Part shown: piece by piece, positions 1 through 27,387 of the stretch
Layout of the letters: each line of letters begins with the position of its first letter
Position numbering within the stretch: position 1 is the first letter of the stretch
From: Alphaproteobacteria bacterium
Lineage (GTDB): Bacteria; Pseudomonadota; Alphaproteobacteria; UBA8366; Aestuariispiraceae
Assembly (NCBI GenBank): GCA_024743195.1
Contig: JANSXE010000005.1
Span: 186,001-250,000, forward strand
DNA: 64,000 nt
Reading direction: 5' to 3'
Position numbers and translations under genes: made by a program
Notes under the pieces: model-generated
What the model was told of the DNA's origin: nothing
What the model saw: only the letters and a program-made list of their open reading frames with translations
The model's database searches: none

Positions 1-255
1 TTGCTGCAGACGGCGCGGCGCATGGCGCGTCGCCTTGCGGTGATCGACCCGATGGTGGTGCGGCGCACCAAGGCGGCGCTCAACCAAAGCCTGGACATCG
101 CCGGCATGACGCAGGCGCTGGAGGCCGCGCTGGAGGCCGACGTCGCGCTGGAGGGCGAAGGCAGCCCGGACAAACGCGCCTTCCTGGCCGAGGCGCGCAA
201 GGGCGGTCTGCGCGCCGCGCTCGCCTGGCGCACCGCGCGCTTCAGCGAAGACTGA
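1..255 (+). CDS. Enoyl-CoA hydratase/isomerase family, C-terminal end (partial)
   Basis: The frame is open at the left edge and ends with TGA at 253-255, giving the last 84 residues of a protein that begins outside the window. The helical tail (LDIAGMTQALEAALEAD, then SPDKRAFLAEARKGGL) looks like the trimerisation helices at the C-terminus of crotonase-fold enoyl-CoA hydratases, often followed by a basic segment that closes the active site. The catalytic glutamates and the oxyanion hole are not in view, so the exact reaction (hydratase, isomerase or hydrolase) cannot be told. Its 3' end overlaps the convergent tonB gene by 14 bases. Confidence 0.65.
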   Translation: MLQTARRMARRLAVIDPMVVRRTKAALNQSLDIAGMTQALEAALEADVALEGEGSPDKRAFLAEARKGGLRAALAWRTARFSED

Positions 256-1393
256 AGAGGACGGGAATGCGGATCGCCGGCGGATCGTCGCCGGCTGCGC
301 CAGGGTGGGCCGCGCCGGGGCCGGCCGCGCCGCCCGGCGGCGGCGGATAGGGCGCAGCGCGCCGGGCGGCCCGGCAGGCGGCGCGGTCCAGCGCCGAGAC
401 CCCGCTCGTCTCCGAGAGCGCGCACCCGACGAGCCCGCCCGCCCTATCCAACCGCAGCAGCAGCACGACCCGGCCGGTCTGGCGCCGCGCCCGCGCCGCC
501 GGCGGATAGCGCAGCGCGGCGCCCACCCGGTCCGAAACCGCGGCCAGAAATCCCGACCAGTCGACGCCCTCGCCCGCGATCGGCGCCGCCTCTTCAGACG
601 GTGAGGCCGCGGCGGGCGATTCGGGGGCGGGCGATTCGGAGGCCGGCGGTTCGGCGCTGGCCGTCGCGGAGACGGGCGGCGGCGCATCGCTGCGCCCCAC
701 GGCGCGGAGGGGTGCGCGCGGCGCGGGCGGGGTCGGCTGCGGCGGGCTTGGCTTCAGCGCGGCGCGCGGGACGGCGGGCGCGTCTTTCGCGCCGTCGAAG
801 GCCACGGGCGGCCCGAGCGGCGGCCCGAGCGGCGGTTTCCGCAGCGGTTCGAGCGGGGGGACGGCCGCCGGTTCGACGGGCGGCGCCGCCGGCTCCTCCG
901 AAGCGACCTGCGGCGTGGGAGTCGCTTGCTCGGGCCGCAAAGCGAGACGACGCGGCGCCGGGCGCTCCCTGGACGACGCGCCGCGGCCCCCCTCTTTCAT
1001 GGCGGCAGAAACCGCCGGCCGCGCGGGCGCCGGCGCCGCGAACAGCACCGCGACGATCCGCTCCGCAGCGGGCGGGGGCGCGGGCGGGGGCGCGGTCGGG
1101 GGCGCGGGCGAACGCGTCGGGGCGAGCAGGACGCCCGCCCCGACGACGACCATATGGACCAGCACGGCCGCCGCCAGGAAGCGCCGCGGCGACGGCGCGC
1201 GAGGCGACGGCGGACCGGCGCGTCCGGCGACCAGTCGGCGCCCGCCGCCGCCGCCGGGCCGACCGCCCGACTTGGCGAGGCGGCGCGGCCCGCGCCGCGT
1301 CCGCAGGCGCATCGGCCCGAGATGCGGCCCGGGGACCGCGCCGGGCCTGGCGGGCGGGGCGGGCGGGGCGGGCGCGCCGGACGTCACGGGCAT
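242..1393 (-). CDS. tonB: TonB energy-transducing protein, dedicated to the adjacent receptor
   Basis: A 383-residue protein that would couple the inner-membrane ExbBD motor to the outer-membrane receptor encoded just upstream. After a long basic and proline-rich N-terminus it has one membrane segment (about residues 72-91), then a Pro/Ala/Glu-rich periplasmic spacer, then a TonB C-terminal domain (about 296-383, starting YPPAARARRQTGRVVLLLRL). The start chosen is ATG at 1393, five bases after the receptor stop codon; the roughly 70-residue cytosolic extension is unusually long, so a start nearer the membrane segment is possible. The spacer contains a three-unit 15-bp DNA repeat at 611-655. 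No exbB or exbD is in the window, so it presumably borrows them. Confidence 0.82.
   Translation of the reverse strand: MPVTSGAPAPPAPPARPGAVPGPHLGPMRLRTRRGPRRLAKSGGRPGGGGGRRLVAGRAGPPSPRAPSPRRFLAAAVLVHMVVVGAGVLLAPTRSPAPPTAPPPAPPPAAERIVAVLFAAPAPARPAVSAAMKEGGRGASSRERPAPRRLALRPEQATPTPQVASEEPAAPPVEPAAVPPLEPLRKPPLGPPLGPPVAFDGAKDAPAVPRAALKPSPPQPTPPAPRAPLRAVGRSDAPPPVSATASAEPPASESPAPESPAAASPSEEAAPIAGEGVDWSGFLAAVSDRVGAALRYPPAARARRQTGRVVLLLRLDRAGGLVGCALSETSGVSALDRAACRAARRAAPYPPPPGGAAGPGAAHPGAAGDDPPAIRIPVLFSLR
611..655. repeat. Three tandem 15-bp units inside tonB
   Basis: Units at 611-625, 626-640 and 641-655; the first two differ at one base and the third is more diverged. They stay in frame and encode part of the Pro/Ser/Glu spacer of TonB. 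One of several 15-bp tandem repeats in this window. Confidence 0.75.
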
Positions 1394-1398
1394 GCGCC

Positions 1399-3531
1399 TC
1401 AGAACCGCGCCAAGACGCGCAGATAGAAGGAGCGCCCCGGCTCGTTCACCTGCACTTCCGTGTTGTCCAAGGCGTTCGCCCGGTTGAGGTGGCCTGCATA
1501 GGTGGCGTCGAACAGGTTGGTCACGCCGAAGCCGAGCTCGATCCGGTCCGTCGCCGCGACGCCGCCATAGAGGTCGAGGACCGCATGGCCGGGCGTCTTC
1601 CGGATGTCGCGCCCGCTGCCCTCCGAGGCGTCGAGATCGACCCGGTTCTGCGTCGCCGCAAGGCGCAGGCGGGAGCCGAGCGTCCAGTCGCCGGCCGCCC
1701 ATTCCGCGCCGAGCGCGCCCTCGAGCGGCGGGGTCTGGGCGAGCGGAATGTCGTCGCTCAGATTCTGGCCGTAGATTGTGTCAACGGCGGCGGTGAGCCG
1801 CCAGGCCTCGCTTGCCTGGAAGGCGGCCTGCAGGCCGCCGCCGGCCAGCAGCGCGTCGATGTTGGTGTAGACGTCGGCCCCGAGCGCGGTGATCTGAACC
1901 CCGCGCTGGGAGCGGGCCGAGTCCCGGAAGATGTAGTCCGACACATAGTTTGCGTAGAGCGCGCCGCCGAGCGACCAACGCCCCGACGCCCAGTCGAGGC
2001 CCGCTTCGATCTGGTGATGCGCCTCCGGGTCGATCGCCGGGTTCCCGACCCAGCTCGTCAGGTTCATGTTGTTGGCGAGCCCGCGCTCGGTCGCGTCGGC
2101 CGTACGCACGCTGCGGCTGGCGCCGAGCGAGAGGTCGAGCCCCTCGCGCAACGCCGCCTCCCAGCGCAGCAGACCGCCGAGATTATGTTCGCTGACATCG
2201 TCGGCCGTGACGCCGTAGAAGCGCCGATAGAGTTGGTTCGCCGTCGAGACCCCGCCCATGGCGATGTCGGTCGCCCGGTCCGCGCGCCCCCAGTCGACGG
2301 AGACGTGATCGTAGCGCGCGCCGATCACGAGCGTGTTGCGGGCGTCGAGCGCCCAGCGCTTCTCGGCGGCCAGACCGGCCTGCAGCGTCGCGATATCGGG
2401 CCAGAGGATCGCGTTGGTCGCGGTCGTCGTCGCCCGCGTGTTCCCGACGTAGCGGGTCGCGTCGCGCCGGTTCGAGGAGGCGTCGAGCCGCAGCGTCAGC
2501 GGGCCGCCCTCGCCGTCCAGATCGGCCTCAAGTGAAAAACCAACCGTGTCGGAACCCGACTCCGCGCGCCGGAATCCGGCCGTGCGCTCGCGCAGGGAGT
2601 AATTGTCCATCCGGTGATCCACGAGAGCGCCGAAGGCTTCGAGGCGCAGGGCCGTCACGGGGCCGGCGTCCACCGGGGTCTCCATCTTGAGACGCAGCGC
2701 GTCGCTCTTGGAATAGGGCGAGTCCATGCCCGCGCCGGCGAACAGCGCATCGTCGATCCGCGTGTAGTCGTAGCCGGCCTCGACGGCCCCGTCGCCGGCG
2801 CTTGCATCCCCGGTCCAGCCGAGCGTCAGACCGGCGCTGTAGTCGCTGAAGCCGCTGCGCACCTCGCGGCCCGCCCCGTCCTCGTAGTTGCCGGCCTGCT
2901 TCCAGGCGCCGACGGCCCGGGCGAAGGCGCGATCGTCCCCGACCGCCAGATCGGCGTGGGTCGAGCGCGCCGAGGCGTTGGAATCGAACCCCGCGCCGAC
3001 GGCGCCGGCGAAGGGCGCGTCGTCAGCGACCGGCGGCCGGTCCCGCTCCAGCGAGACCACGCCGCCGGGCGCGCCGGGGCCGTTGAGGACGCTTTGATAG
3101 CCGCGGGTCACGACGATGCGGTCGGCGCCCTCGGCGGCGCCGTAGACCGTCGGCGGGTCCATCCGGTTCGGGCAGGCGCCGAGCGCCTGCACCCCGTCCG
3201 TCAGAACGGTGAGCTGGTTCTGCTGCAGCCCCCGGATCACGGGCTCGAGGCCGTGACCGCCCATGCGCCCGGCGCTGACCCCGGGCAGACTGCGCAGATA
3301 GTCGCCCGCATCGCTCCAGGGCGCGCGGGTCGGGTCGGCGGGAAAGCTCTCGCTGACCGCGGGAGAGGACGGCGCCGTCCCAAGGATCGAGACCGCCGGG
3401 GCGGTCAGCGGCTCGTCCGCGAGGGCGGGCGGCGCGGCCGCGGCCGCAGTCGCCGTCACGGCCAGAAGCGCAAGACGGAAGGCGGCGGGACGCGCGCGCA
3501 GCGCGTCCCGGTGGGATCGTACAAAAGACAT
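1399..3531 (-). CDS. TonB-dependent outer-membrane receptor, OprC/NosA copper type
   Basis: A 710-residue outer-membrane receptor: signal peptide to about residue 39, a plug domain (DYLRSLPGVSAGRMGGHGLEPVIRG region, 78-101) and a beta-barrel ending in the usual terminal Phe (RVLARF). In the plug the sequence GACPNRMDPP puts C120 and M124 in a CxxxM arrangement. Established knowledge: Pseudomonas OprC binds copper with a CxxxM site in the same region, and NosA of denitrifiers is its relative. ATG 3531 is preceded by AGGTGA at good spacing; a longer frame reaching 3627 lacks this. It lies between a DUF2946-like gene and tonB on the same strand, apparently one operon. Copper specificity is inferred from the motif and the neighbours. 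Confidence 0.85.
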   Translation of the reverse strand: MSFVRSHRDALRARPAAFRLALLAVTATAAAAAPPALADEPLTAPAVSILGTAPSSPAVSESFPADPTRAPWSDAGDYLRSLPGVSAGRMGGHGLEPVIRGLQQNQLTVLTDGVQALGACPNRMDPPTVYGAAEGADRIVVTRGYQSVLNGPGAPGGVVSLERDRPPVADDAPFAGAVGAGFDSNASARSTHADLAVGDDRAFARAVGAWKQAGNYEDGAGREVRSGFSDYSAGLTLGWTGDASAGDGAVEAGYDYTRIDDALFAGAGMDSPYSKSDALRLKMETPVDAGPVTALRLEAFGALVDHRMDNYSLRERTAGFRRAESGSDTVGFSLEADLDGEGGPLTLRLDASSNRRDATRYVGNTRATTTATNAILWPDIATLQAGLAAEKRWALDARNTLVIGARYDHVSVDWGRADRATDIAMGGVSTANQLYRRFYGVTADDVSEHNLGGLLRWEAALREGLDLSLGASRSVRTADATERGLANNMNLTSWVGNPAIDPEAHHQIEAGLDWASGRWSLGGALYANYVSDYIFRDSARSQRGVQITALGADVYTNIDALLAGGGLQAAFQASEAWRLTAAVDTIYGQNLSDDIPLAQTPPLEGALGAEWAAGDWTLGSRLRLAATQNRVDLDASEGSGRDIRKTPGHAVLDLYGGVAATDRIELGFGVTNLFDATYAGHLNRANALDNTEVQVNEPGRSFYLRVLARF

Positions 3532-3639
3532 CGGGTCACCTGTCTGAAGAGTTGGACGCGCGGCGCGACGACGCACCCGGTCGCGCAAAGCGACGGGGCG
3601 CGGCCCCAAGGCCGCGTCGGAACGCAAGCTGGCTTCAGA

Positions 3640-4077
3640 TCAGGCGGGCGGCCCCCGGCCAGGCGGGCGGTCCCAGAGCGTCGGATCACGCGGCGCCGCG
3701 CCGTCCTGCACGGGCCGCCGCGACGCCGGGGCGACGGCGCGGGGCGCCCAAAGCGCGACGCCGTCCGGCCGATCGAGCGCGACGAGCTTGGCGAGCGTGC
3801 AGGCCGGGCACTCGGCCGGCTGCGCGCCCTCCTCGTCCGCCGCCGACTCGGGCAGGCAGAAGGCGGGATCGATCCCCGCCGCCTCGTAGAAGGCCAGCAG
3901 GGCCGTCTGGGAGGACCGGGCGACGTCCTGCCCCCCGCCTGCCGCCCAGGCCGCGCCGGGGGCGTGGAGGTAGGGCCACAGCAGCGAAAGCAGCAGCGGC
4001 GCCAGCGCCAGCGCGCGCGCCGCGCGCACAGCATGGTCGCGCACTCTCCAGCGCCGCACTGTCCCTCTCCCGCTCAT
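3640..4077 (-). CDS. DUF2946-like exported small protein with CxxC
   Basis: A 145-residue protein with a hydrophobic N-terminal segment (about 18-46, likely signal peptide), then C74 and a C90-P-A-C93 pair in a PAECPACTLAKL context, ending in the RGPP-type tail usual for DUF2946 proteins. Members of this family are commonly found beside copper-type TonB-dependent receptors and cytochromes; their biochemical role is not established, and metal binding by the cysteines is an inference. It is the first gene of the leftward operon with the receptor (108 bp downstream) and tonB. Two dyad sequences lie directly upstream (4082-4093 and 4105-4129). Confidence 0.7.
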   Translation of the reverse strand: MSGRGTVRRWRVRDHAVRAARALALAPLLLSLLWPYLHAPGAAWAAGGGQDVARSSQTALLAFYEAAGIDPAFCLPESAADEEGAQPAECPACTLAKLVALDRPDGVALWAPRAVAPASRRPVQDGAAPRDPTLWDRPPGRGPPA

Positions 4078-4081
4078 GCCG

Positions 4082-4129
4082 GGTCTATAGACCGGCGGCG
4101 GCGGGTTTGCAAAGTAGCCCTACGCAAAC
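4082..4129 (-). promoter_or_regulatory. Two dyads upstream of the copper-receptor operon
   Basis: A perfect 12-bp palindrome GGTCTATAGACC is at 4082-4093. At 4105-4129 a nested dyad has outer arms GTTTGC/GCAAAC and inner arms GTAG/CTAC. Both lie within 55 bp of the start codon of the DUF2946-like gene, in sequence richer in A/T than its surroundings. Position and symmetry suggest a repressor operator, perhaps metal-responsive; no regulator gene is adjacent, so the protein is unknown. Confidence 0.45.
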
Positions 4130-4145
4130 TGCGGCAATACGCCTC

Positions 4146-4976
4146 TCAGCCCGCGCGGCGCACGTCGGGCACAAAGGCCTGGCCGGCGAAATGCTCCTGC
4201 GCGCCATCGGAGAATTTGAGGCCCGCGCGCAGGATCGCGCCGTCGTCGACCATCTCCAGCGGCACGTAGGAGCGGTCGTCCTCTTTCACGTACGCGTCGT
4301 TGCTGACGGCGTTGTAGCAGATCAGAAGCGTCCAGCGCCGCTTGTCGGACGCGTTGCGGTCGGAGCGGTGCAGCGTGTTGCAGTGGAAGACGAAGACGTC
4401 GCCCGGCTCCATCACCGCATCGACCACCTCGTGGCGCTTCAGGATTTCCCTCATGCGGGCGGGGTCGGCCTCGTTCTGCTTGTCGGTCAGCGGGACGTGA
4501 TCGATGCGGCCCATCTTATGGCTGCCGCGCACGACCTTCAGGCAGCCGTTCTCCGGCGTCGTCGCGTCCAGCGCGATCATGCAGCTCAGCATATCGGGGC
4601 GCAGGCAGCCATTGTGGTACCAATAGCCGTAATCCTGGTGCCATTCCCAGGCGCCGCCCTCATGCGGCTCCTTGGCGGTCAGCTTGCTCTGATAGTGATA
4701 GACCGGCTCGCCGATCAGGCGTTCGGCCGTATCGACCATGCGGGGGATGCGGGCCGCCAGGCCGTAGACGCTGTCGCCGGCGCGGTTCCACAGCGCGATC
4801 TTGGTGCCGAAGCCTTGCTGGTCGGCGCGGACCAGCATGTGCTCGGCGATCGCCGGGTCCTCGGCCATCGCGCGATTCAGCAGCGCGACCTCCTGCGCAT
4901 CGAACAGTCCCTTCAGGGTCACGAAGCCGTCGGCGTGATAGGCCGCCTCCTGCTCCGGCGTCAGGATCGTCGCCAT
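4146..4976 (-). CDS. Phytanoyl-CoA dioxygenase (PhyH) family Fe(II)/2-oxoglutarate oxygenase
   Basis: A 276-residue cytosolic protein with the PhyH fold signature. WEWHQDYGYW gives the HxD iron ligands H113 and D115, and FHCNTLHRS supplies the distal histidine (H203 most likely); the following KRRW holds the basic residue expected to bind 2-oxoglutarate. Such enzymes hydroxylate small molecules; the family includes phytanoyl-CoA hydroxylase and ectoine hydroxylase. Length and motifs are complete, so it should be active, but the substrate cannot be read from sequence. It sits between two divergent copper gene sets. The gap of 68 bp to the next leftward gene carries dyads, so it is probably transcribed separately. 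Confidence 0.8.
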   Translation of the reverse strand: MATILTPEQEAAYHADGFVTLKGLFDAQEVALLNRAMAEDPAIAEHMLVRADQQGFGTKIALWNRAGDSVYGLAARIPRMVDTAERLIGEPVYHYQSKLTAKEPHEGGAWEWHQDYGYWYHNGCLRPDMLSCMIALDATTPENGCLKVVRGSHKMGRIDHVPLTDKQNEADPARMREILKRHEVVDAVMEPGDVFVFHCNTLHRSDRNASDKRRWTLLICYNAVSNDAYVKEDDRSYVPLEMVDDGAILRAGLKFSDGAQEHFAGQAFVPDVRRAG

Positions 4977-5039
4977 GGCGCGCGCCCTCCCGTTTTTCGT
5001 TGTCCGTCGGGTCCGGCTCCCAGCGCCGGCCCTGGTGCG

Positions 5040-5053
5040 TGCAGTCTACTGCA
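5040..5053. promoter_or_regulatory. Perfect palindrome in the divergent promoter region
   Basis: TGCAGTCTACTGCA (6-bp arms, 2-bp centre) lies between the PhyH gene (start 4976, leftward) and the cytochrome operon (start 5170, rightward). It is a candidate operator for either side. It does not match a copper-regulator consensus I can recite with confidence. Confidence 0.35.
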
Positions 5054-5169
5054 AGCGGGCGCCCTGCGCAAAAGCGCGCAGCGCGCCGCCGGCCCCTTTG
5101 CGTCGGCCCGCTTCGCAGCTAAGCTACCCTCAGATCGCCGCTTTCGGCGGACCGACGGTGAGAGACGAC

Positions 5170-5559
5170 ATGGTCCGACCCGACCCCTGCGCGTCGAAAC
5201 GACCGCCCGCCCGCCGCACCGCCGGCGGCGGTTTGCGGCGCATTCTGGCGTACGCGGCGATCGCGCTCGCGCTCGTCGCCGGCGGACTGGCAGGCCATTC
5301 GGACAGCCATGCGGCGGCGCATCACGGTCCCTCGGGCTGGCTGGACGGGGCGGCGGCCGCCCATGACGCCGGCGCCTGCTGCGCGCCGGCGCCCGCCAGC
5401 GCCGGCTGCGTCGCGCCGGCGGTGAGCGCCGGCTCCGCCGGGCTTGCCCCGCCGTCTATCGGATCCGCGGCGCTTCTGGGTCCGCCACGCCGCGCGACCC
5501 GGCCAGACGGGCTCGAGCGGGCGCCGCCGACGCCGCCTCCGCAGGATCTCGCGCTCTGA
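5170..5559 (+). CDS. Small exported Cys/His-rich protein, first gene of cytochrome/copper operon
   Basis: A 129-residue protein I cannot assign to a named family. It has a basic N-terminus and a hydrophobic segment (about 24-41) that looks like a signal peptide or membrane anchor, then a His-rich stretch (GHSDSHAAAHH) and clustered cysteines (C70, C71, C80), and ends in a Pro-rich tail. That layout resembles the small DUF2946-like proteins found with copper genes. ATG 5170 follows GGTGAGAG and is preferred over the in-frame ATG at 4975, which lies inside the PhyH promoter region. It heads a rightward operon with cytochrome c', a diheme cytochrome and a CopG-like protein; 67 bp separate it from the cytochrome. 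Confidence 0.6.
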   Translation: MVRPDPCASKRPPARRTAGGGLRRILAYAAIALALVAGGLAGHSDSHAAAHHGPSGWLDGAAAAHDAGACCAPAPASAGCVAPAVSAGSAGLAPPSIGSAALLGPPRRATRPDGLERAPPTPPPQDLAL

Positions 5560-5626
5560 CTTCGACACGCGGGCGGCCCTGAGCGGTCCGCCCCTCAGAG
5601 ACGACGAGACGGAGACGAGGATCATC

Positions 5627-6238
5627 ATGACCGATCATCACAGGCGGCCGCGCTTGGCGGCGTTGGGGCTTTGGGCGGGCGCAGGCGGGGCGGCGGCCGT
5701 CCTTGCGGCGGGATTGGGCGGCGGCGCCGTCGCCCATGTCGGCGCGACCGGCGTGGTCAAGGAGCGTATGGATCTGATGATGGAGATCGGCGACGCCACC
5801 AAGGCGATCGCCGACATGCTGCGCGGAACGCAGCCCTACGACGCCGAGCGGATGCGGGCCATGGCGCGCCGGATCGAAGGCCATGGCGGGGAGGCGATGA
5901 CCAGCCTGTTCCCCGACGGCAGCCTCGATCACCCGAGCGAGGCGCTGCCGGCGATCTGGACCGAGTGGGAGCGTTTCGAGCGGCTGGCCGACCTGATGGC
6001 GGATCAGGCCGGCGCGCTCGCCCGCGCCGCCGACAATCCGCGCGGCCCGATGCAGCGAGGCGGCGGCATGATGGGCGGGTCCGGCATTATGTCCGGGTCC
6101 GGCATGATGGGCGGGGGCATGATGGGCGGCGGCGGGCCGAGCGCCGAAGACCTCGCCGCCATGCCGCCGGACGCGGCCTTCCGACATCTGGCGCAGACCT
6201 GCTCGGCCTGCCACGAAGCCTATCGCGAAGAGCAATAG
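5627..6238 (+). CDS. Cytochrome c' family protein with Met/Gly-rich insert
   Basis: A 203-residue periplasmic protein. A hydrophobic N-terminus (about 9-37) is followed by a helical body with a heme-c site near the C-terminus, CSACHEAYR (C192, C195, H196), the layout of cytochrome c' four-helix bundles. Between helices, residues about 142-170 are a Met/Gly-rich run (repeats of MMGG) not present in ordinary cytochrome c', which could bind Cu(I). ATG 5627 follows GGAGACGAGG. It is second in the operon and ends two bases before the diheme cytochrome gene. Cytochromes c' bind NO and respond to nitrosative or metal stress; the copper link here is inferred from the insert and neighbours. Confidence 0.82.
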   Translation: MTDHHRRPRLAALGLWAGAGGAAAVLAAGLGGGAVAHVGATGVVKERMDLMMEIGDATKAIADMLRGTQPYDAERMRAMARRIEGHGGEAMTSLFPDGSLDHPSEALPAIWTEWERFERLADLMADQAGALARAADNPRGPMQRGGGMMGGSGIMSGSGMMGGGMMGGGGPSAEDLAAMPPDAAFRHLAQTCSACHEAYREEQ

Positions 6239-6239
6239 G

Positions 6240-7142
6240 GTGCGGCGGACGGGATGGATCGCCGCCGCGGTCGCGCTTGCGATCGCGGCCGGCGGCGCGG
6301 GGACGTGGCTGATCGGCGGGCCGACGGCGCCGCCGCGCGACCTGACGGACCTCACGGGCGATGTGAACCGGGGCGCCTATGTCGCGCGGCTCGCCGGCTG
6401 CATTCCCTGCCATACGGATTCGGAGGCCGGCGGCGCGGTGCTGGCCGGCGGCGGGCCGCTGAAGACCGAGTTCGGGATCTTCTACGGCCCCAACATCACG
6501 CCGCACGAAACCGACGGCGTCGGCGCCTGGACGCTGGAGCAGTTCGCCGCGGCGGTGACGGAAGGGCGGGCGCCCGACGGGTCGCATTACTATCCGTCCT
6601 TCCCCTATGCCTTCTACACGCGGCTCAGCGATCAGGACATCGTCGACCTCTGGGCGGCGGTGCGCTCCGTCCCCGCGGTGGAAGGCCGCGCGCCGCCGCA
6701 TGATCTCGCCTTTCCCTATACGGTCCGGGCCGGGCTTGGCGCATGGAAGCGGCTCTATCTCGATCCCGAGCCGGCGCCGGCGGACTGGCCGCGCGGCCGC
6801 TACCTGGCGGAGGTCGCGCATTGCGGGGCCTGCCACACGCCGCGCACCGCGCTGGGCGGGCGGGACGCGGACCGGCGCTTCGCCGGCGCCCCGACGCCCG
6901 GCGGCGGGACGATCCCGGCGATCACCGGCGCGGCGCTGACCGAGGCCGGCTGGACGGTCGAGGATCTGGCCTATTCGCTGGTCAGCGGGGTGAAGCCCGA
7001 CGGCGACGTCTATGGCGGGGCGATGGCCCGCGTCGTCCAGGGCGGCACGCAATTCTGGAGCGCGACAGATCGCGACGCGCTCGCCGTCTATCTGTTCGAA
7101 GGCGCCCTCGGCGCCCCGATAACCGAAGGAGAGACCCAATGA
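6240..7142 (+). CDS. Diheme cytochrome c
   Basis: A 300-residue protein with a single N-terminal hydrophobic segment (about 6-26) and two heme-c sites, CIPCH (C54, C57, H58) and CGACH (C195, C198, H199). The two domains, each with NITPHETDGVGAW- or TIPAITGAAL-like sequences after the heme motif, are typical of the membrane-anchored cytochrome subunits of alcohol or aldehyde dehydrogenases and related diheme proteins. It begins with GTG two bases after the cytochrome c' stop, so translation is probably coupled, and ends in an ATGA overlap with the DUF411 gene. No dehydrogenase subunit is nearby, so it more likely passes electrons in the copper/periplasmic redox module. Confidence 0.83.
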   Translation: MRRTGWIAAAVALAIAAGGAGTWLIGGPTAPPRDLTDLTGDVNRGAYVARLAGCIPCHTDSEAGGAVLAGGGPLKTEFGIFYGPNITPHETDGVGAWTLEQFAAAVTEGRAPDGSHYYPSFPYAFYTRLSDQDIVDLWAAVRSVPAVEGRAPPHDLAFPYTVRAGLGAWKRLYLDPEPAPADWPRGRYLAEVAHCGACHTPRTALGGRDADRRFAGAPTPGGGTIPAITGAALTEAGWTVEDLAYSLVSGVKPDGDVYGGAMARVVQGGTQFWSATDRDALAVYLFEGALGAPITEGETQ

Positions 7143-7612
7143 ACCGACGGAGTTTCCTCAGCCGCCTGGCCGCCCTTCCCGCGGCGCTCGCCGCCGGACC
7201 GGCGCTAAGCGGCCGCGCCGCCGCGCGGGACCTCCCCAAGCTCGTCGTCGCCAAGACGCCGACCTGCGGCTGCTGCGGCGCCTGGGTCGAGCGGATGCAG
7301 GCCGCCGGCTTCACCGTCGAGGCGCATGACGTGACCCAAGAGGCGCTCAATCAGATCAAGGCGCAGCTCGGCGTTCCGCAGCCGCTGCACTCCTGCCACA
7401 CCGGCCAGATCGACAGCTACTTCATCGAAGGTCACATTCCCGCCGAAGACATCAAACGCCTGATCGCGGAGCGGCCGGACGGCGTCGGGATCGCCGCGCC
7501 CGGCATGCCGGCCGGATCGCCGGGCATGGAGATGGGCGCGATGCGCGATTCCTATCAGACCCTGCTGCTGCGCCCGGACGGGTCCGTCGACGTCTTCGCC
7601 CGGCACGGCTGA
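7139..7612 (+). CDS. DUF411 metal-binding protein, CopG-like
   Basis: A 157-residue exported protein with twin-arginine-like N-terminus (MNRRSFLSRL) and the DUF411 hallmarks: TPTCGCCGAWVERM (C43, C45, C46), LHSCHT (C86), EGHIPAEDI, and GMPAGSPGMEMG near the end. Established knowledge: CopG, a periplasmic copper-resistance protein of this family, holds a cysteine-bridged tetranuclear copper cluster; the same cysteines are present. It is the last gene of the rightward operon, overlapping the diheme cytochrome by ATGA, and it ends 17 bp from the convergent PEBP gene. This is the strongest single argument that the operon concerns copper. Confidence 0.88.
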   Translation: MNRRSFLSRLAALPAALAAGPALSGRAAARDLPKLVVAKTPTCGCCGAWVERMQAAGFTVEAHDVTQEALNQIKAQLGVPQPLHSCHTGQIDSYFIEGHIPAEDIKRLIAERPDGVGIAAPGMPAGSPGMEMGAMRDSYQTLLLRPDGSVDVFARHG

Positions 7613-7629: not shown

Positions 7630-8160
7630 TCAGTAGCGGCCGAGGCTGATCTCGCCTTCGGCGATCTCCTCATAGGCGCCGTCCGCAGCGCGGACGACGG
7701 CGTAGACCTCGGCCTCGTAGCGGTTGTTGCGGCCGCCGGAGCAGGGCGGCAGATAGCCGGGCGAGCGCCAAGCGCCCTTGGCGCGGTTCTTCTTTTCGAG
7801 CCACACGCCCTCCGGCATCTCGGCCGCGCCGCCGGGCACGGCCGGCAGCACCGTCTCGCCGACGCCCGGCTCGATCACGAAGCCGATGATCCCATGCCCG
7901 CCGTTCCTGGAGAGCGGCTGGTAGCTCTTGTCGTTGAACTCGACGACGAGGGCGTTGGCCTCGGCCGGGATGTTGGAGACCCTGAGCGGCGGCGTCGCGC
8001 CGTCGCCGCCGAACTTCTTGCAATGCTGGCCGTCCGGAATCCTCTCCCCGTCCCAGGCCGGGTCCGCGAAGGTCACGGTCAGGTCTTGCGCCTGGGCGGA
8101 CCCGCCGCTCATCGCGAGGGCGAGCGCAAACAGCGCGCCGGCAACGGGTGCACGGAGCAT
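7630..8160 (-). CDS. PEBP (YbhB/YbcL-like) family periplasmic protein
   Basis: A 176-residue protein with a clear signal peptide (about 1-24, cleavage after SAQAQ) and a phosphatidylethanolamine-binding-protein fold: the FGGDGATPPLRVSNIPAEANALVV stretch and the later GYLPPCSGG region are conserved in bacterial PEBP proteins, whose ligand is generally unknown. ATG 8160 is preceded by a perfect AGGAGG. It follows bchJ by 40 bp on the same strand and may be carried on the bchEJ transcript, though a role in photosynthesis is not known for it. Confidence 0.8.
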   Translation of the reverse strand: MLRAPVAGALFALALAMSGGSAQAQDLTVTFADPAWDGERIPDGQHCKKFGGDGATPPLRVSNIPAEANALVVEFNDKSYQPLSRNGGHGIIGFVIEPGVGETVLPAVPGGAAEMPEGVWLEKKNRAKGAWRSPGYLPPCSGGRNNRYEAEVYAVVRAADGAYEEIAEGEISLGRY

Positions 8161-8200: not shown

Positions 8201-8815
8201 TCAGTCGAGCGCGATCTCGAACCGGCACAGCGGATCGCCGGCGCGCGCGCAGGCGGGGTGCGTAACCCGCGCCCGGCGGCTGACCAGCGCCTGGAACAAG
8301 CGGCTGAAGACGCCGACATGCCAGACGCAGCCGGGCATGGCGAGCGGGTTGCCTGCGATCTCGACCCGGCTGGGCGCGCCATAGGCCGCCCGACAGACGC
8401 CGGAGCCTGCGAAGGTCCAGGCGTTGCGCTGGATCGCCTTGAGCAGCAGCCGGGCGGCCAGCGGCGCCGGCAGGGCCTTCAACAGCGCCTTCACCGGGCC
8501 CGGGATGCGGTGCGCCATGACGTAGTCGGCGGTGCGCCGGCCGGCCTCGGCCGCGATCTCCGACGCCGCATCGTGCGGATAGGCGGCGAACAGGGTCTCG
8601 AACAGCGCCGCGGGCACGGCTTGCGGGATCATGGCGTCCAGGCGCGCCTCGGCCCAATCGGCCAACCCGGCGCGCAGGAACAGGCCGAGGGCCGCCGCCT
8701 CGCCGGCTCGTTCCGCCAGCGCCGCGCGCAGTTGGATCACCGCGTTGGGGCCGATCAGCCCGTCCGGGTGGGCGGCGGCGCCCGCCGGCGGCGCGAGCGG
8801 GTCGGCGAGCGCCAT
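8201..8815 (-). CDS. bchJ: Bacteriochlorophyll biosynthesis protein BchJ (V4R domain)
   Basis: A 204-residue cytosolic protein matching BchJ: an N-terminal helical part (IGPNAVIQLRAALAERAG) and a C-terminal V4R (4-vinyl reductase) domain with AGNPLAMPGCVWHVGVFSRL and the closing cysteine-bearing HPACARAGDPLCRFEI. BchJ was first proposed as the 8-vinyl reductase; later work suggests it instead helps deliver intermediates or affects flux, so the catalytic label is uncertain. It starts six bases after the bchE stop and is clearly co-transcribed. The bchE-bchJ order is the same as in Rhodobacter photosynthesis clusters, but the next bch genes do not follow here. Confidence 0.88.
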   Translation of the reverse strand: MALADPLAPPAGAAAHPDGLIGPNAVIQLRAALAERAGEAAALGLFLRAGLADWAEARLDAMIPQAVPAALFETLFAAYPHDAASEIAAEAGRRTADYVMAHRIPGPVKALLKALPAPLAARLLLKAIQRNAWTFAGSGVCRAAYGAPSRVEIAGNPLAMPGCVWHVGVFSRLFQALVSRRARVTHPACARAGDPLCRFEIALD

Positions 8816-8821
8816 CGTCCC

Positions 8822-10519
8822 CTACTCCGCCGGGATGCGGTCGCCGGGTTCCGGCGTCGCGGCCGCTGGCGAGCCGTCCGCCAGCGCCTCGTCCATCTGC
8901 TCGCGCCCGCCGCCGCAGGCCATCGCGGCCTCGGCCCCGCTCGCCGCCGACGCGGCGGCGGCCTGACCCTTGCGCGTCTTGTCCGCGGCGGCGACCCAGT
9001 CGCTCGCCTCCACCGGCGCGATGCGCTTGGTGCGGTCGAAGTGGAAGTCGACCTTCTTCTTCGACTGCGGCCCCCAGTAATTGACCTTGCCCAGATCGTA
9101 GAACTTGCGCTGGAAGCCGGCCTTCAGGAAGGCCTTCAGGCAGCCCAACAGATAGCGCCGTCGGAAACCCGTCCCGCGCCAGGGATAATGGAACAGCGCC
9201 TTCTGCATGTAGAAGCGGCGATAGTTGTTCATCACGCGGTCGAGCAGTTCGCCGCGCTCCATCGCCTCCGGCTTCATGATCGGCGTGACGAAGTTGTACT
9301 TCTCGAAGTCGAAGATCTCGACCTTGTCGCCCAGCTCCTTGAACAGGTTGGAGAAGGGCCAGGGCGTGTACATGGCCCAGTTGGCGAGGTCCGGCTGCCA
9401 GTCCCAGGCCATGCGGTAGGTCTCTTCCAGCGTCTCCGCCGTCTCGTTCTCCAATCCTACGATGAATTGGGCCTCGACGAAGATGTCCGCTTCGCGCAGC
9501 AGTTGGACCGCGCGTTTGTTCTCCTCGACCCGGGTCTCCTTGTTGAAGCGGTCGAGCTTGAGCTGCGCCGCCGCCTCGGTGCCGAGCGAGACGTGCACGA
9601 GCCCGGCCTCGCGATAGAACTTCAGCAGCTTTTCGTCGCGCAGGATGTCGGTCACGCGGGTGTTGATGCCCCACTTGATCTTGTCGGGCAGGCCGCGGGC
9701 GATCAGCTCCTCGCAGAACTGGATGAACTTCTTGCGGTTAATCGTCGGCTCCTCGTCGGCGAGGATGAAGAAGCCTACATCGTGCTCGTTCACGAGCCGC
9801 TCGATCTCGTCGACCACCTTCTTGGGATCGCGGATGCGGTAGTCGCGCCAGAACTTCCATTGACTGCAGAAGCTGCAGGTGAAGGGGCAGCCGCGCGCCA
9901 TGTTGGGGATCGCGACGCGCACGCCCAGCGGCACGTAGATGTACTTCTCCCACTCCAACAGCGACCAGTCGGGGTCGATCGCGTCGATGTCCTTGACCGT
10001 CGGCGCGGCCTCGTTGGCGACGATGCGCCCACCCTCGCCGCCGTCCGGATCGGGCTCGAGATAGGCGAGCCCCTTGATCTCCGCCCGGTGTGCGGGCCAG
10101 AGGCCGGCGTCGATCACCTGGATCAGCTCGCGGAAGATCTCCTCACCCTCGCCGCGGACGATCACGTCGATCCAGGGCGCTTCGGCCAGCACCTGCTTGT
10201 ACATGAAGGTGGCGTGGATGCCGCCCAGCACGCGCACCGCGTCGGGGCAGGCCTCGCTCGCCACGCGCAGGATCTCCTCCGCCTTGTAGATCGACGGCGT
10301 GATCGCCGTCGTGCCCACCACGTCGGGCTTCAATTCCGTCAGCCGCGCGGCCACCTCCTCCATCGGAAGGTCGTTGGTCATCGCGTCGATGAAGGTGACG
10401 TCGTCATAGCCCGCCGCCTTCAGATGGCCCGTCAGATAGGCGGCCCAGGCCGGCGGCCAGTTGCCCGCGATCTCGGCGCCGCCGGAATGGTAGTTCGGAT
10501 GGATGAGCACGATGCGCAT
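8822..10519 (-). CDS. bchE: Anaerobic Mg-protoporphyrin IX monomethyl ester oxidative cyclase BchE
   Basis: A 565-residue B12-binding/radical SAM enzyme that forms the isocyclic ring E of bacteriochlorophyll without oxygen, using water as the oxygen donor. The N-terminus [19 protein letters not shown] and the cobalamin-binding-like domain (1-145) are highly characteristic, and the radical SAM cluster motif is C211-C215-C218 in [15 protein letters not shown]. The end has an Ala-rich, poorly conserved extension after about residue 510. ATG 10519 follows GGGAG at nine bases. Upstream lie a PpsR/CrtJ-type site and an FNR/FixK-type box, which fits the known oxygen control of bchE. This gene is the main evidence that the host is an anoxygenic phototroph. 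Confidence 0.95.
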
Positions 10520-10712: not shown

Positions 10713-11837
10713 ATGTCCATCTTACGGCAGCTTCTCGTGATCGCGGCGCTCGCCGCGGCCGGTTACGCGCTATGGAACGCGGACGAGCTGGGGTTGCTCG
10801 ATCGCGCCGGGCGCGACTCCCCGGCCGACAGCGGGGTCGAGGCGCGCCTCACGCCGGAAGCCGACGGCGTGCCCGTCACCGTCGCGGCGATCGGCCTGGC
10901 GCGCGACGATGTGCGTCTCGAGGCGGTCGGCGACGGCTTGGCGCTCAAGGCGGTGACGCTCTTCCCCGCGGTCTCGGGCGAGGTGGAGGCCCTGTTGTTC
11001 GAGGCCGGCCAGACGGTCGCCGCCGGCGAGACGGTGGTCAGACTGGACGACCGGCGCGAGCGCGTCGCGCTCGATCTGGCCGAGGTCGCCGTCGCCGACG
11101 CAGAGCGCACGCTGGCGCGCTTCGAGCGCGCGGTCGGCTCCGGCGCCGTTTCGGAGACCGAGGTGGACGCGGCGCGCACCGCGCTGGAGCGCGCGCGCCT
11201 GGAGCGCGACCAGGCGCAGATCGCACTCGACGACCGGACGGTCGAGGCGCCGTTCGACGGCGTCCTCGGCATCCCCAGAATCGAGATCGGCGACCGCGTC
11301 GACGACGAGACCGCGCTCGCCACGCTCGACGACCGGTCGGTGCTGCTGGTGGATTTCGAGGTCCCCGAAGCGGTCGCCGGGCGGATCGCCCCCGGCGATG
11401 CGGTCGAGGCGCGAACCTGGAGCCTGCCGGACGCGCGATTCACGGGCCGGATCAGCGCGCTGGAAAGCCGCATCGACGCCGCCACCCGCTCGATCCGGGT
11501 GCGTGCGCGCCTGCCCAACGACGGCGACCGGCTGCGCCCGGGCATGTCCTTCGCGATCGCGCTCGACCTGCCGGGGCGTCTCTACCCGGCGGTTCCGGAG
11601 GTCTCGCTGCAGTGGGGGCGCGAGGGCGCCTATCTCTGGCGCGTGCGGGACGGCCGGGCCGAAAGGCTGTTCGTCGCCGTGAAGAAGCGCGGGGCCGGGC
11701 GCATCCTGGTCGACGGACCGCTGGCCGAAGGCGACGAGATCGTGGTCGAAGGCGTGCAGCGCATGCGCGAGGGCGTGCGCGTCGCGATCGTCGGCCGGGC
11801 GACTCCTCCCGCCGCAGGGTCGGGGGCGCCCCAATGA
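10713..11837 (+). CDS. RND efflux periplasmic adaptor (membrane fusion protein)
   Basis: A 374-residue HlyD/MFP-family protein that links the inner-membrane RND pump to the outer-membrane channel. It has an N-terminal membrane anchor (about 4-20, no lipobox), a first half-lipoyl motif (FPAVSGEVEALLFEAGQTVA), a helical hairpin (about 115-170), the second lipoyl half (VEAPFDGVLGIPRIEIGDRV) and beta-barrel and membrane-proximal domains to the end. It is the first gene of a tightly coupled operon: its stop overlaps the pump gene start (ATGA at 11834). Substrate class cannot be inferred. Confidence 0.9.
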   Translation: MSILRQLLVIAALAAAGYALWNADELGLLDRAGRDSPADSGVEARLTPEADGVPVTVAAIGLARDDVRLEAVGDGLALKAVTLFPAVSGEVEALLFEAGQTVAAGETVVRLDDRRERVALDLAEVAVADAERTLARFERAVGSGAVSETEVDAARTALERARLERDQAQIALDDRTVEAPFDGVLGIPRIEIGDRVDDETALATLDDRSVLLVDFEVPEAVAGRIAPGDAVEARTWSLPDARFTGRISALESRIDAATRSIRVRARLPNDGDRLRPGMSFAIALDLPGRLYPAVPEVSLQWGREGAYLWRVRDGRAERLFVAVKKRGAGRILVDGPLAEGDEIVVEGVQRMREGVRVAIVGRATPPAAGSGAPQ

Positions 11838-14800: not shown

Positions 14801-15094
14801 GGCGGGGTGCCGTTGATCCTCGGCGGCGGAGCGGGCGCGGAGGCGCGCGCCGCCATCGGCTGGGTGGTGTTCGGCGGGCTTGGGATCGCGACGCTCTACA
14901 CCCTGTTCCTGGCGCCGGTGATCTATCTCGGCCTCGCCCGCTTCGCCAAACCGCGCGCCCATGGCGGGGAGCGTCTGGCGGCCGAGCTGGACGAGGCCGG
15001 CGCGGCCGTCGAGCGCGACGCCGACGTGCTGGAGGAGGCGGGCGCCGCCGGCCCGAACGCCGCGCCCCAGCCCCGGCCGGAGGGGCGGGCGTGA
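11834..15094 (+). CDS. RND multidrug-type efflux transporter (HAE1 family)
   Basis: A 1086-residue inner-membrane proton antiporter, normal length for the family. Its first membrane helix is near residues 36-60, two large periplasmic loops follow helices 1 and 7, and the proton-relay aspartate pair lies in helix 4 (LATGLIVDDSIVVLENIQRR), as in AcrB/MexB-type pumps and not in the metal-type CusA pumps. Helix 10-12 sequences (LIMLVGLMAKNGILVVEFAD) are also standard. It overlaps the adaptor gene by ATGA and the outer-membrane factor gene by GTGA, so all three components are made from one message. Confidence 0.92.
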   Translation: MTATSEPPPDSPSAPPAGPRLPAAERLLGGLPGLSIRRPVLIAVVNLLIVIAGVAAVLGVEVRELPDVDRPTVSIRFVWDGAAPETVDTEVTSVVEDAAARTPGVRAIASSSEENNARMRVEFDPGVDLTEAANDLREAVAGIERDLPDGVEDLVIVKADADADPIMRLAVKSETLSEAALTELADEEVARELSTVPGVAEVRLFGDREQVLRVVVDPLRLAGYDLSIDELAAVLERARFDVPAGSYKSDDQMLIVRADASVWRAEEVDRLILRDPIRLGDVAEVFYGPADAESYVQADGQRVIGLGVVRQAQSNTIAISDGVREAVDRLNRRLDDAQVVVISDDAVFIRSAIKEVLTSLGLAILVVIGVIYLFMGSIRPTLIPAAVIPVALIGVVAAIWLVGFSINILTLLALVLATGLIVDDSIVVLENIQRRRAQGLAPYAAAAVGARQVFFAVIATSATLISVFVPISFLPGTAGRLFVEFGFVLAIAVALSSFVALTLCPMLAARLPDVRVRSADARTAQGRGLGVLGRPVVRAYERLLDWSLQAPLVVLALAVAAAAGSFLLFQNIERELTPREDRGAILVWLSGPDGVGLDYTARQVEQVEAALRPLRAAGEVETIFSIVGRYDMHRGYTVAPLKPWDERTRGQQEIANDLRDALAAIPGANARIIAPNSLGLRGAGGGLEVALLGDDYAELADAADVMMAAMRERYDGRMEDLRLSYQATQPELSLAIDRRRASDLGVEVEAISDALRVMVDGFEVAQVAVADESVPVMLQSTAGAIDGPDDLRNLFVRTAGGAMVPLSALVTVEETGVATELDRHAQKRAVEIDAGLAPGYALSQAVADVESLADELLPPGISLKLLGEAETLEETSYDVAITFAIAILVVLLVLAAQFESVNSAVVIILTVPFGVSAAIFALAATGTSINIYSQIGLIMLVGLMAKNGILVVEFADQLRDRGYSVRAAVRNAALIRLRPVMMTMLSTVLGGVPLILGGGAGAEARAAIGWVVFGGLGIATLYTLFLAPVIYLGLARFAKPRAHGGERLAAELDEAGAAVERDADVLEEAGAAGPNAAPQPRPEGRA

Positions 15095-27343: not shown

Positions 27344-27387
27344 GGGAGCGTCGTTCCTTCTATTGAGCCCATTTATCGGGCGAAGCG

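Follow-up and report, generated by a model that had tools for sequence, protein, structure and literature searches.

Two types of small leader proteins have been described ahead of bacterial copper genes. In Bordetella pertussis, the DUF2946 protein CruR is the leader of bfrG/crtA, and the same report places OprC-type receptors, including oprC of Pseudomonas aeruginosa, behind cruR homologues (PMC9426467). Members of the CruR family are described as carrying a CXXC motif and, 45 residues (plus or minus one or two) further on, a C-terminal RAPP-like motif; RGPP is reported to arrest ribosomes, and CruR arrest was seen in vitro (PMC12992588). The second type is CutF of the CutF-CutO-CutG system of Rhodobacter capsulatus (PMC9973294, PMC8456105). 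As described for this organism, CutF works in cis only, is undetectable in cells and did not behave as a strong stalling sequence by itself (PMC9973294), while CutG is reported to be dispensable (PMC8456105). A published list holds 5,334 CutF-like proteins. Here we describe a 64,000-nucleotide stretch of an alphaproteobacterial genome, in the following referred to as the window, in which leaders resembling both types stand a short distance apart.

Results

Anatomy of the locus

A first-pass annotation had described this region as a nine-gene copper module; its own list comprised eight genes, and eight is also the number that we find, including a gene for PhyH. They form two apparent operons in opposite orientation, with about 1.1 kb between the leader starts and PhyH as a bystander in between. 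Each listed gene could be located as an open reading frame with a matching family or motif. The module had been given a left end at 1393, to the right of the whole of tonB (242-1390). The host is probably a phototroph. Gene anatomy, leader motifs and their recurrence, receptor copper-site residues and the RNA pairing statistics of the leader-cytochrome family were all computed from sequence.

242..1390, minus strand: tonB, placed third in the import operon; TonB_C PF03544 47.1 bits and TIGR01352 57.6 bits, both above cut-off
1399..3531, minus strand: OprC-like TonB-dependent copper receptor; OprC 6fok E 1.3e-70; TIGR01778 452 bits, below cut-off
3640..4077, minus strand: CruR-like (DUF2946-like) leader ORF, 145 aa; CPAC, 47 residues, RGPP-A end
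3646..3657, minus strand: codons for RGPP (residues 141-144), a putative arrest motif in the CruR-like leader
3799..3810, minus strand: codons for CPAC (residues 90-93), where the CruR-like leader may bind copper
4146..4976, minus strand: PhyH, between the two operons
5170..5559, plus strand: CutF-like leader ORF, 129 aa; hydrophobic start, His cluster, CC...C, tail ERAPPTPPPQDLAL
5518..5529, plus strand: RAPP codons of the CutF-like leader
5533..5541, plus strand: PPP codons CCGCCTCCG of the CutF-like leader; CTCC at 5537-5540 is the predicted anti-SD
5611..5614, plus strand: GGAG, possible SD of cytochrome c' at a distance of 12 nt from the ATG
5618..5621, plus strand: AGGA, nearer candidate SD of cytochrome c', not masked
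5627..6238, plus strand: Met-rich cytochrome c' (possibly c-556 type); PF01322 84.8 bits; PDB matches to cytochromes c' and c-556
6050..6135, plus strand: Met-rich insert ahead of the heme motif, bounds approximate; the 60 residues leading up to CxxCH contain 9 Met
6240..7142, plus strand: diheme cytochrome c; PF00034, two CxxCH
7139..7612, plus strand: CopG/CutG-like DUF411 protein; PF04214 86.7 bits; CopG 6wis E 7.6e-33; ATGA overlap with the diheme stop

A CruR-like leader heads the putative import operon

For ORF 3640-4077, earlier labelled DUF2946-like, Pfam yields DUF2946 and no other family, but for this protein alone the match to PF11162 is below significance (E 3.4; 8.9 bits against a gathering cut-off of 23.7), and we therefore call it CruR-like. 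In the aligned leader set, seven of nine members match DUF2946 at E<=5, the best at 2.7e-7. CPAC (residues 90-93) constitutes the CXXC motif of CruR/DUF2946 leaders, and RGPP follows after 47 residues, at positions 141-144 of 145, in line with the published C-terminal pattern. Judged from gene order, the leader is the first gene of the operon, separated from the receptor by a long spacer of 108 nt. A Pro-tailed Cys ORF lies upstream of all eight homologous receptors, in seven cases within 500 nt, with CxxC absent from the leaders in two of the eight relatives and with the receptors of loci L139-L141 all belonging to one genus.

The receptor, previously assigned as OprC/NosA-type, is homologous to P. 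aeruginosa OprC (PMC8610252) over its whole length and shares the CxxxM-HxM copper site, formed by C120, M124, H306 and M308 in register with OprC; these residues are present in nine of nine aligned receptors. Its score of 452 bits against TIGR01778 falls under the curated cut-off of 472.45, and this is why we name it OprC-like. These motifs support the proposed capture of copper at the outer membrane. A further difference from OprC as described is the adjacent, dedicated tonB, which begins 8 nt after the receptor. The arrangement in B. pertussis, as reported (PMC9426467), likewise consists of a small exported CxxC ORF with a terminal RAPP or RGPP ahead of a TonB-dependent copper receptor. The window differs from it in having an OprC-like receptor and not CrtA, a tonB gene and not a PepSY_TM gene after the receptor, RGPP and not RAPP, and a weak match to the DUF2946 model.

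A CutF-like leader heads the cytochrome operon

Compared with the published filters for CutF-like proteins, ORF 5170-5559 measures 129 aa from the start codon that we chose (the reading frame is open from 4975), ends in the tail RAPPTPPPQDLAL and lies 67 nt from cytochrome c'. Its hydrophobic stretch passes a simple hydropathy rule, and its exported character is thus a rule-of-thumb prediction. It contains CC...C without CxxxC, and the next gene encodes cytochrome c', not a multicopper oxidase; for these two reasons we speak of a CutF-like protein and not of CutF. With CutF-CutO-CutG, as described (PMC9973294, PMC8456105), the operon shares a putatively exported Cys protein with a Pro-rich end, a short spacer, SD masking as predicted here at one of two candidate sites, and a CopG homologue at its end. 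It differs from that system in its Met-rich cytochrome c' and diheme cytochrome c, which stand in for the multicopper oxidase, in the missing CxxxC of the leader, and in the position of the anti-SD, which is predicted within the leader's codons, whereas the CutF papers describe an intergenic stem-loop.

Among the 204 ORFs of 60-260 aa in the 64-kb window, three show R[AG]PP within the final 16 positions, and two combine this motif with CxxC or CC: precisely the two leaders at the operon heads. To follow the CutF-like leader beyond the window, we scanned for cytochrome c' with an alignment of eight self-chosen cytochromes, a mixture with and without leader. The best 80 of at least 465 confirmed candidate loci were clustered at about 90%, yielding 51 clusters that still include relatives of each other; all counts out of 51 given below refer to these best 80 loci. 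A strict CutF-like leader precedes cytochrome c' in 32 of the 51 clusters and is missing in 19, compared with 10 of 690 control ORFs, spurious frames included, and 2 of 31 loci of diheme paralogues, five of which do have a cytochrome c' match. A leader was accepted up to 300 nt away from cytochrome c' and, in the diheme control, up to 400 nt away. The strict rule demands Cys and misses the His-only leaders of L164, L166 and L174, so that 32 may be too low; a looser rule finds 36 of 51, of which at least two appear to be false (L161, L227). When the leader itself was searched in plasmids by tblastn, no match was obtained at E<=1.

Taking the two small proteins as DUF2946-like and as an exported Cys/His-rich protein, respectively, described their motifs but overlooked their likeness to nascent-chain copper sensors: both look like cis-acting regulators. 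Their Cys or Cys/His motifs and exported look would also suit ordinary periplasmic copper-binding chaperones whose Pro ends stall no ribosomes, and the first CutF paper left unsettled whether copper is bound for CutO or CutO is an interaction partner (PMC8456105). We consider this improbable, given that the extreme C-terminal Pro motif and the short gap to the next gene recur, that the choice of tail codons matches the SD of the next gene (see below), and that CutF is reported to act in cis only and to be undetectable in cells (PMC9973294) and CruR to arrest in vitro (PMC12992588).

The leader tail is predicted to mask the SD of cytochrome c'

The tests of pairing between leader and cytochrome c' SD left out loci without a recognisable SD: the shuffle test could use 29 of 36 loci (the 32 strict leaders, the window and three more), and the ribosome, partner, synonymous and spacer tests 27 of 33. 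At the 29 loci, the unpaired probability of the SD is 0.17 in native and 0.31 in shuffled sequence, and at the 27 loci a modelled ribosome frees the SD by +0.244 in native sequence compared to +0.044 in shuffles. The predicted partner of the SD lies in the leader's Pro or last codons at 24 of 27 testable loci. Synonymous recoding raises the mean unpaired probability from 0.16 to 0.35 at the 27 loci (0.164 to 0.343 with the window left out, n=26), and the effect is confined to the SD (0.187, against 0.018 in the remaining spacer). As relatives are still present after clustering, they were merged into 20 groups; in this check, carried out on rounded values, the native-codon effect holds in 18. 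The window entered the partner, synonymous-mean, spacer and 20-group tests with a hand-set GGAG. Whole-region folding energies are ordinary (z -0.89 and 0.25). In these models, the family shows a clear trend for the SD to be masked by RNA from which a ribosome on the leader would free it.

In the window, GGAG (5611-5614) pairs with CTCC at 5537-5540 at 0.96-0.98. AGGA is unpaired at 0.40 against 0.31 in shuffles and ranks at the 58th percentile of recodings; one of the two SD candidates is thus predicted to be masked, namely GGAG, the one with the long 12-nt spacing, which we chose ourselves. A modelled ribosome at TPPP, not RAPP, frees GGAG to just 0.04-0.43. On the CruR side, no SD masking is seen in the window, which ranks at the 39.7th percentile among recodings, and one of five testable CruR loci falls at or below the 10th percentile, three of eight loci having been left out as they gave no SD match.

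Could the pairing simply follow from the C-richness of Pro codons and a high GC content, with no switch involved? Pro codons, being C-rich, provide some pairing with G-rich SDs for free, the AGGA of the window is not masked, and the loci are related to each other. Such a side effect, however, does not account well for native codons outperforming synonymous codons of the same protein, across merged groups as well as single loci, nor for an effect that sits at the SD and not elsewhere in the spacer. We regard this explanation as possible but doubtful.

Cytochromes and DUF411 in a copper context

The window cytochrome c' exceeds the PF01322 cut-off by far (84.8 vs 26.5 bits) and carries the family's CxxCH at its C-terminus as CSACH. 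Four residues past the helix-1 Arg it has Met instead of the Leu of cytochrome c' 1a7v, which we take to suggest a closed, c-556-like heme. Its 9 Met per 60 residues before the heme motif compare with a median of 11.5 in the 32 leader-led clusters and with 2 and 1 in two generic relatives; up to 14 Met also occur in clusters lacking the strict leader. The DUF411 protein (PF04214 86.7 vs 27 bits) agrees with CopG, in the 6wis alignment, in its CGCC and SCH motifs and in a Met-rich motif at the C-terminus.

The operon of cytochrome c' and diheme cytochrome c recurs and is often located on plasmids: the diheme cytochrome adjoins cytochrome c' in 44 of the 51 clusters, and a multicopper oxidase is nearby in 27 and a Cu-ATPase in 15, compared to 0 of 31 diheme-paralogue loci. 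Plasmid islands of Rhodobacterales and Thalassobaculum share the order leader, Met-rich cytochrome c', diheme cytochrome c, but continue with a multicopper oxidase and often a Cu-ATPase, where the window continues with DUF411. A complete replacement of multicopper oxidase can be ruled out, as the window's own genome has Cu-oxidase_3 at C10:169-171 kb and C31. A separate leader-cupredoxin-MCO operon is located about 14-17 kb to the left of the window.

Motifs and neighbours in relatives thus support the earlier proposal that the cytochromes and CopG handle copper redox chemistry, from which we infer Cu(I) oxidation. Alternatively, the cytochromes may oxidise no Cu(I); they could take the place of electron carriers, or shield them, under copper damage to cytochrome c maturation, or they could bind a gas, for instance NO, which some cytochromes c' do. 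The Met-rich insert directly ahead of the heme motif speaks against this, as does the Met at helix-1 Arg+4 with its presumably closed heme. On the other hand, the operon on pDSHI03 of D. shibae adjoins ccm genes, and the Ccm pathway is reported to be struck by excess copper (PMC8456105), making such a role a real possibility, if somewhat short of an even chance.

The two operons are not found together in the relatives examined

Receptor homologues (E<=1e-60) occur in 3 of 59 genomes in the search of relatives and in 8 of 387 genomes of the class, the own genome being counted in both. At eight receptor loci (about 6 to 15 kb) from other genomes there are no matches for cytochrome c', the diheme cytochrome or DUF411; a genome of the same genus possesses the CruR-like leader and receptor, with diheme and DUF411 matches absent. 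From the cytochrome side, a TBDT match is present in the flank of 1 of 51 clusters, about 4.6 kb off, with no Pro-tailed leader seen ahead.

PhyH was rejected as a member, having no match in 40 loci fetched from relatives or in the best 80 of at least 465 cytochrome loci; it appears in 4 of 31 diheme-paralogue loci, kilobases distant. In the window it ends 68 nt from the start of the CruR-like leader on the same strand, and the two may be co-transcribed.

The genes are tightly packed in their own genome and both halves contain copper-linked parts, as would be expected if receptor, TonB, cytochromes and DUF411 worked, and were selected, as one integrated system. Conserved adjacency of the nine-gene module was not found, though: the receptor and cytochrome halves occur together in none of the relatives examined, leaving a single module unsupported, and the two leader types would be expected to respond with opposite sign. 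We judge an integrated system to be very unlikely; the other option offered by the first-pass annotation, halves that are regulated apart, fits better.

Discussion

Our preferred reading, which we hold to be probable, is that of two copper operons, each led by a nascent-chain copper sensor, with copper turning import off and detoxification on, the latter by way of a Cu(I) relay. Stalling and the copper response, including its sign, are what we infer. At the head of both operons, the small exported protein would sense copper while on the ribosome. Without copper, the ribosome would arrest at the terminal RGPP of ORF 3640-4077, the operon would be read on, and the OprC-like receptor and TonB would be made; copper on CPAC would release the arrest and shut import. 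In the published CruR case the shut-off is described as Rho termination in the spacer, which measures 108 nt here. With copper, the ribosome on ORF 5170-5559 would pause at RAPPTPPP and cover Pro codons otherwise paired with the GGAG ahead of cytochrome c', and the freed GGAG would open translation of cytochrome c', diheme cytochrome c and CopG. The Met-rich loop of this set is the probable binding site for periplasmic Cu(I), whose electron would then probably travel via the hemes to the electron-transport chain; in effect this would be a heme-based equivalent of detoxification by multicopper oxidase.

In its most specific form, which we put forward tentatively, the proposal gives the Pro tail a dual use: the peptide would stall on bound copper, and in the RNA the Pro and final codons, often CCUCC or similar, would be the anti-SD, such that a ribosome stalled there would itself sit on the lock. 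In operons of this class, the lock would guard a Cu(I) oxidation relay from a Met-rich c-556-type to a diheme cytochrome that, unlike an oxidase, would need no oxygen itself. Both leader types are already known; new are the CutF-like leader on a cytochrome operon and the masking element within the putative stall tail.

What was a list of copper genes thereby becomes a testable regulatory design, with two neighbouring nascent-chain copper sensors of expected opposite sign, one serving import and the other detoxification. That the SD pairs with Pro or last codons of the leader itself is a prediction at codon level, open to testing on the published CutF-like proteins. If true, this would give the recurrent cytochrome c'-diheme operon a part in the handling of copper in the periplasm, possibly an oxygen-free one, which would suit phototrophs.

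Organization of the copper genes

The first-pass annotation had placed these genes in a nine-gene copper module. The genes themselves were found in the window but number eight, and tonB (242-1390) falls outside, to the left of the boundary then drawn.

Genes of the window (G000:C10:186001-250000; contig C10 of the organism's own genome, G000)
242-1390, minus strand: tonB
1399-3531, minus strand: OprC-like receptor
3640-4077, minus strand: small ORF, CruR-like, 145 residues
4146-4976, minus strand: PhyH
5170-5559, plus strand: small ORF, CutF-like
5627-6238, plus strand: cytochrome c'
6240-7142, plus strand: diheme cytochrome c
7139-7612, plus strand: DUF411
7630-8160, minus strand: PEBP/YbhB-like exported protein (PF01161, 25.4 bits, barely above cut-off)
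within 8201-10519, minus strand: V4R/BchJ-like gene (28.1 bits, below the cut-off of 31)
within 8201-10519, minus strand: bchE, anaerobic Mg-protoporphyrin cyclase (TIGR02026, 811.9 bits)

The idea of a single module is not supported, since its halves were found apart in the relatives examined: leader and receptor (locus L144) are present in G001, a genome of the same genus, and no diheme or DUF411 match; a related genome (G004) carries the cytochrome c'-diheme pair, with no leader or receptor detected. The nearness of the import and redox halves in the window may be chance or useful. PhyH, previously counted in the copper set, looks like a bystander.

Import half: an OprC-like receptor behind a CruR-like leader

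The receptor matches OprC (6fok) with an E-value of 1.3e-70, and its C120, M124, H306 and M308 fall at the positions of OprC's four copper ligands (PMC8610252). Both copper-site motifs are kept in 9/9 aligned receptors; we call the protein OprC-like because its score is below the TIGR01778 cut-off.

According to PMC9426467, a TonB-dependent receptor operon of Bordetella pertussis is headed by CruR, a DUF2946 protein of 145 residues in which CXXC is followed by 45 residues and RAPP, a gap constant to one or two residues across the family; copper at CXXC relieves arrest at RAPP, whereupon Rho stops transcription. Genes behind cruR homologues include OprC-type receptors (PMC9426467). RGPP and RAPP arrest ribosomes readily, and CruR arrest was seen in vitro (PMC12992588, in part); for another receptor cluster, crtA, cruR comes first in over 40% of operons, some with tonB genes (PMC12914433, in part). 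The window ORF 3640-4077, likewise of 145 residues, has a hydrophobic stretch, then CPAC, 47 rather than 45 residues, and RGPP-A, with RGPP in place of RAPP, as its extreme C-terminus. DUF2946 scores only 8.9 bits against this ORF alone but matches 7/9 of the aligned leader set (best E 2.7e-7). Of eight receptor homologues from other genomes, seven are preceded within 500 nt by a small ORF that contains two or more Cys and has a RAPP/RGPP end, and the remaining one by a comparable ORF about 1.4 kb upstream; CxxC is absent from two of the eight ORFs.

Redox half: a CutF-like leader before cytochromes

As described in PMC9973294, CutF is exported, carries CxxxC and ends in a Pro-rich stretch; its copper-dependent delay makes the Shine-Dalgarno (SD) sequence of the following gene accessible, here cutO, which encodes a multicopper oxidase (MCO). 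The CutF tail by itself was found to be no strong stalling sequence (PMC9973294); cutG, encoding a CopG homologue, follows cutO (PMC8456105, excerpt). Compared with this cutF-cutO-cutG order, the window has leader, cytochrome c', diheme cytochrome c and CopG. ORF 5170-5559 contains His residues and CC...C and ends in ERAPPTPPPQDLAL. When the 204 window ORFs of 60-260 residues were scanned for R[AG]PP in the last 16 residues, three matched, two of which (3640-4077 and 5170-5559) also have CxxC or CC. The third, 27246-27455(+), is without CxxC and possibly spurious.

A scan with eight aligned cytochromes yielded at least 465 confirmed candidates, of which the best 80 formed 51 clusters at about 90%. 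Within these, the diheme gene adjoins cytochrome c' in 44 clusters, and neighbours include MCO (27), Cu-ATPase (15) and DUF411 (6), with a TBDT match within the flank in one. A strict leader, defined by a hydrophobic stretch, a Cys and a Pro motif among its final 24 residues and lying 15-300 nt ahead of the gene, precedes 32 of the 51 versus 10/690 other long ORFs at the same loci; DPPPPR is a frequent tail. Of 31 loci centred on diheme homologues that the search of relatives had supplied, 2 have a strict leader and none an MCO or Cu-ATPase match.

Among the loci listed, the tail closest by eye to the window's RAPPTPPP is RAPPNPPP on a plasmid of Thalassobaculum sp. OXR-137, from a hydrothermal vent plume, with the order leader, cytochrome c', diheme cytochrome, second leader, cupredoxin, MCO, CopB. 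The same position is occupied on D. shibae pDSHI03 by a leader of 108 residues that ends in DPPPPRRWV and is absent from the gene table shown; further along come MCO, cytochrome c, DsbA, Cu-ATPase and cueR. This operon (L242) is adjoined by ccm cytochrome-maturation genes, a DsbD-domain protein and DsbA. The organism's own genome holds a second CutF-like leader (CICATLC...LKPPRV) with cupredoxin and MCO at C10:168963-171983 (L003:2963-5983), which is some 14-17 kb to the left of the window. Cytochrome c' matches fall on 89 plasmid records, 42 predicted conjugative, and the L176 cluster (25 of the best 80 loci) comprises almost identical leader-cytochrome c'-diheme-MCO-Cu-ATPase islands that recur across many marine Rhodobacterales, a pattern suggestive of recent horizontal transfer.

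Predicted masking of the SD

Across mutually related loci, the cytochrome c' SD is less unpaired than in shuffles (mean 0.17 vs 0.31; 29/36 loci), and removing the RNA that a ribosome at the first PP would cover raises unpairedness by 0.244 vs 0.044 in shuffles (27/33). Because the loci share ancestry, no weight is placed on P-values here. The main SD partner lies in the leader's coding end at 24/27 loci (Pro codons 12, Pro codons to stop 12), otherwise in the intergenic region (2) or undecided (1). Synonymous recoding, which leaves the protein tail unchanged and draws codons from the next gene's usage, gave 0.35 vs 0.16 natively (27 loci), with the native SD at or below the 10th percentile in 13/27; the effect was 0.187 at the SD and 0.018 in the rest of the spacer, and persisted in 18/20 groups once relatives were merged. 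The SD behind the second own-genome leader pairs at 0.80 with that leader's last 30 nt (10th percentile of recodings).

The window's own CutF-like leader gives a mixed picture. CTCC within the PPP codons is the predicted partner of GGAG (5611-5614), with a pairing of 0.96-0.98; this GGAG lies at the 3rd percentile of recodings and rises from 0.02 to about 0.66 unpaired with a modelled ribosome at RAPP, and to only 0.04-0.43 at TPPP. Shuffles and recoding saw no masking of the nearer SD candidate, AGGA. Recoding showed no SD masking in the window's CruR spacer, which agrees with a mechanism different from the CutF type.

Both leader kinds have been described; in the titles, abstract openings and paper passages covered, we found no description of a cytochrome c'-diheme operon headed by a CutF-like leader, or of an anti-SD inside stall codons, and within that scope the arrangement is a new variant.

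Possible function of the cytochromes and genomic setting

Counted over the 60 residues that precede CxxCH, Met has a median of 11.5 among the 32 leader-led clusters and ranges from 1 to 14 in the 19 clusters without a strict leader (both from the best 80 of at least 465 candidates); the window cytochrome has 9, and two generic relatives have 2 and 1. At helix-1 Arg +4 the window protein has Met, versus Leu in cytochrome c' (1a7v alignment); this is the distal heme position, where Met would suit an electron-transferring c-556. Because of the Met data and the MCO, cupredoxin and Cu-ATPase neighbours, we infer that these cytochromes are putative Cu(I)-binding and -oxidizing proteins passing electrons into the electron-transport chain.

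Right of DUF411 follow the PEBP-like gene, convergent with it, the V4R/BchJ-like gene and bchE; right of bchE are an RND-type efflux adaptor and pump (10713-15094(+), translations judged by eye). From bchE and the V4R/BchJ-like gene beside the copper genes, the host is probably a phototroph, and copper toxicity to tetrapyrrole enzymes might tie this pair to the adjoining copper genes.
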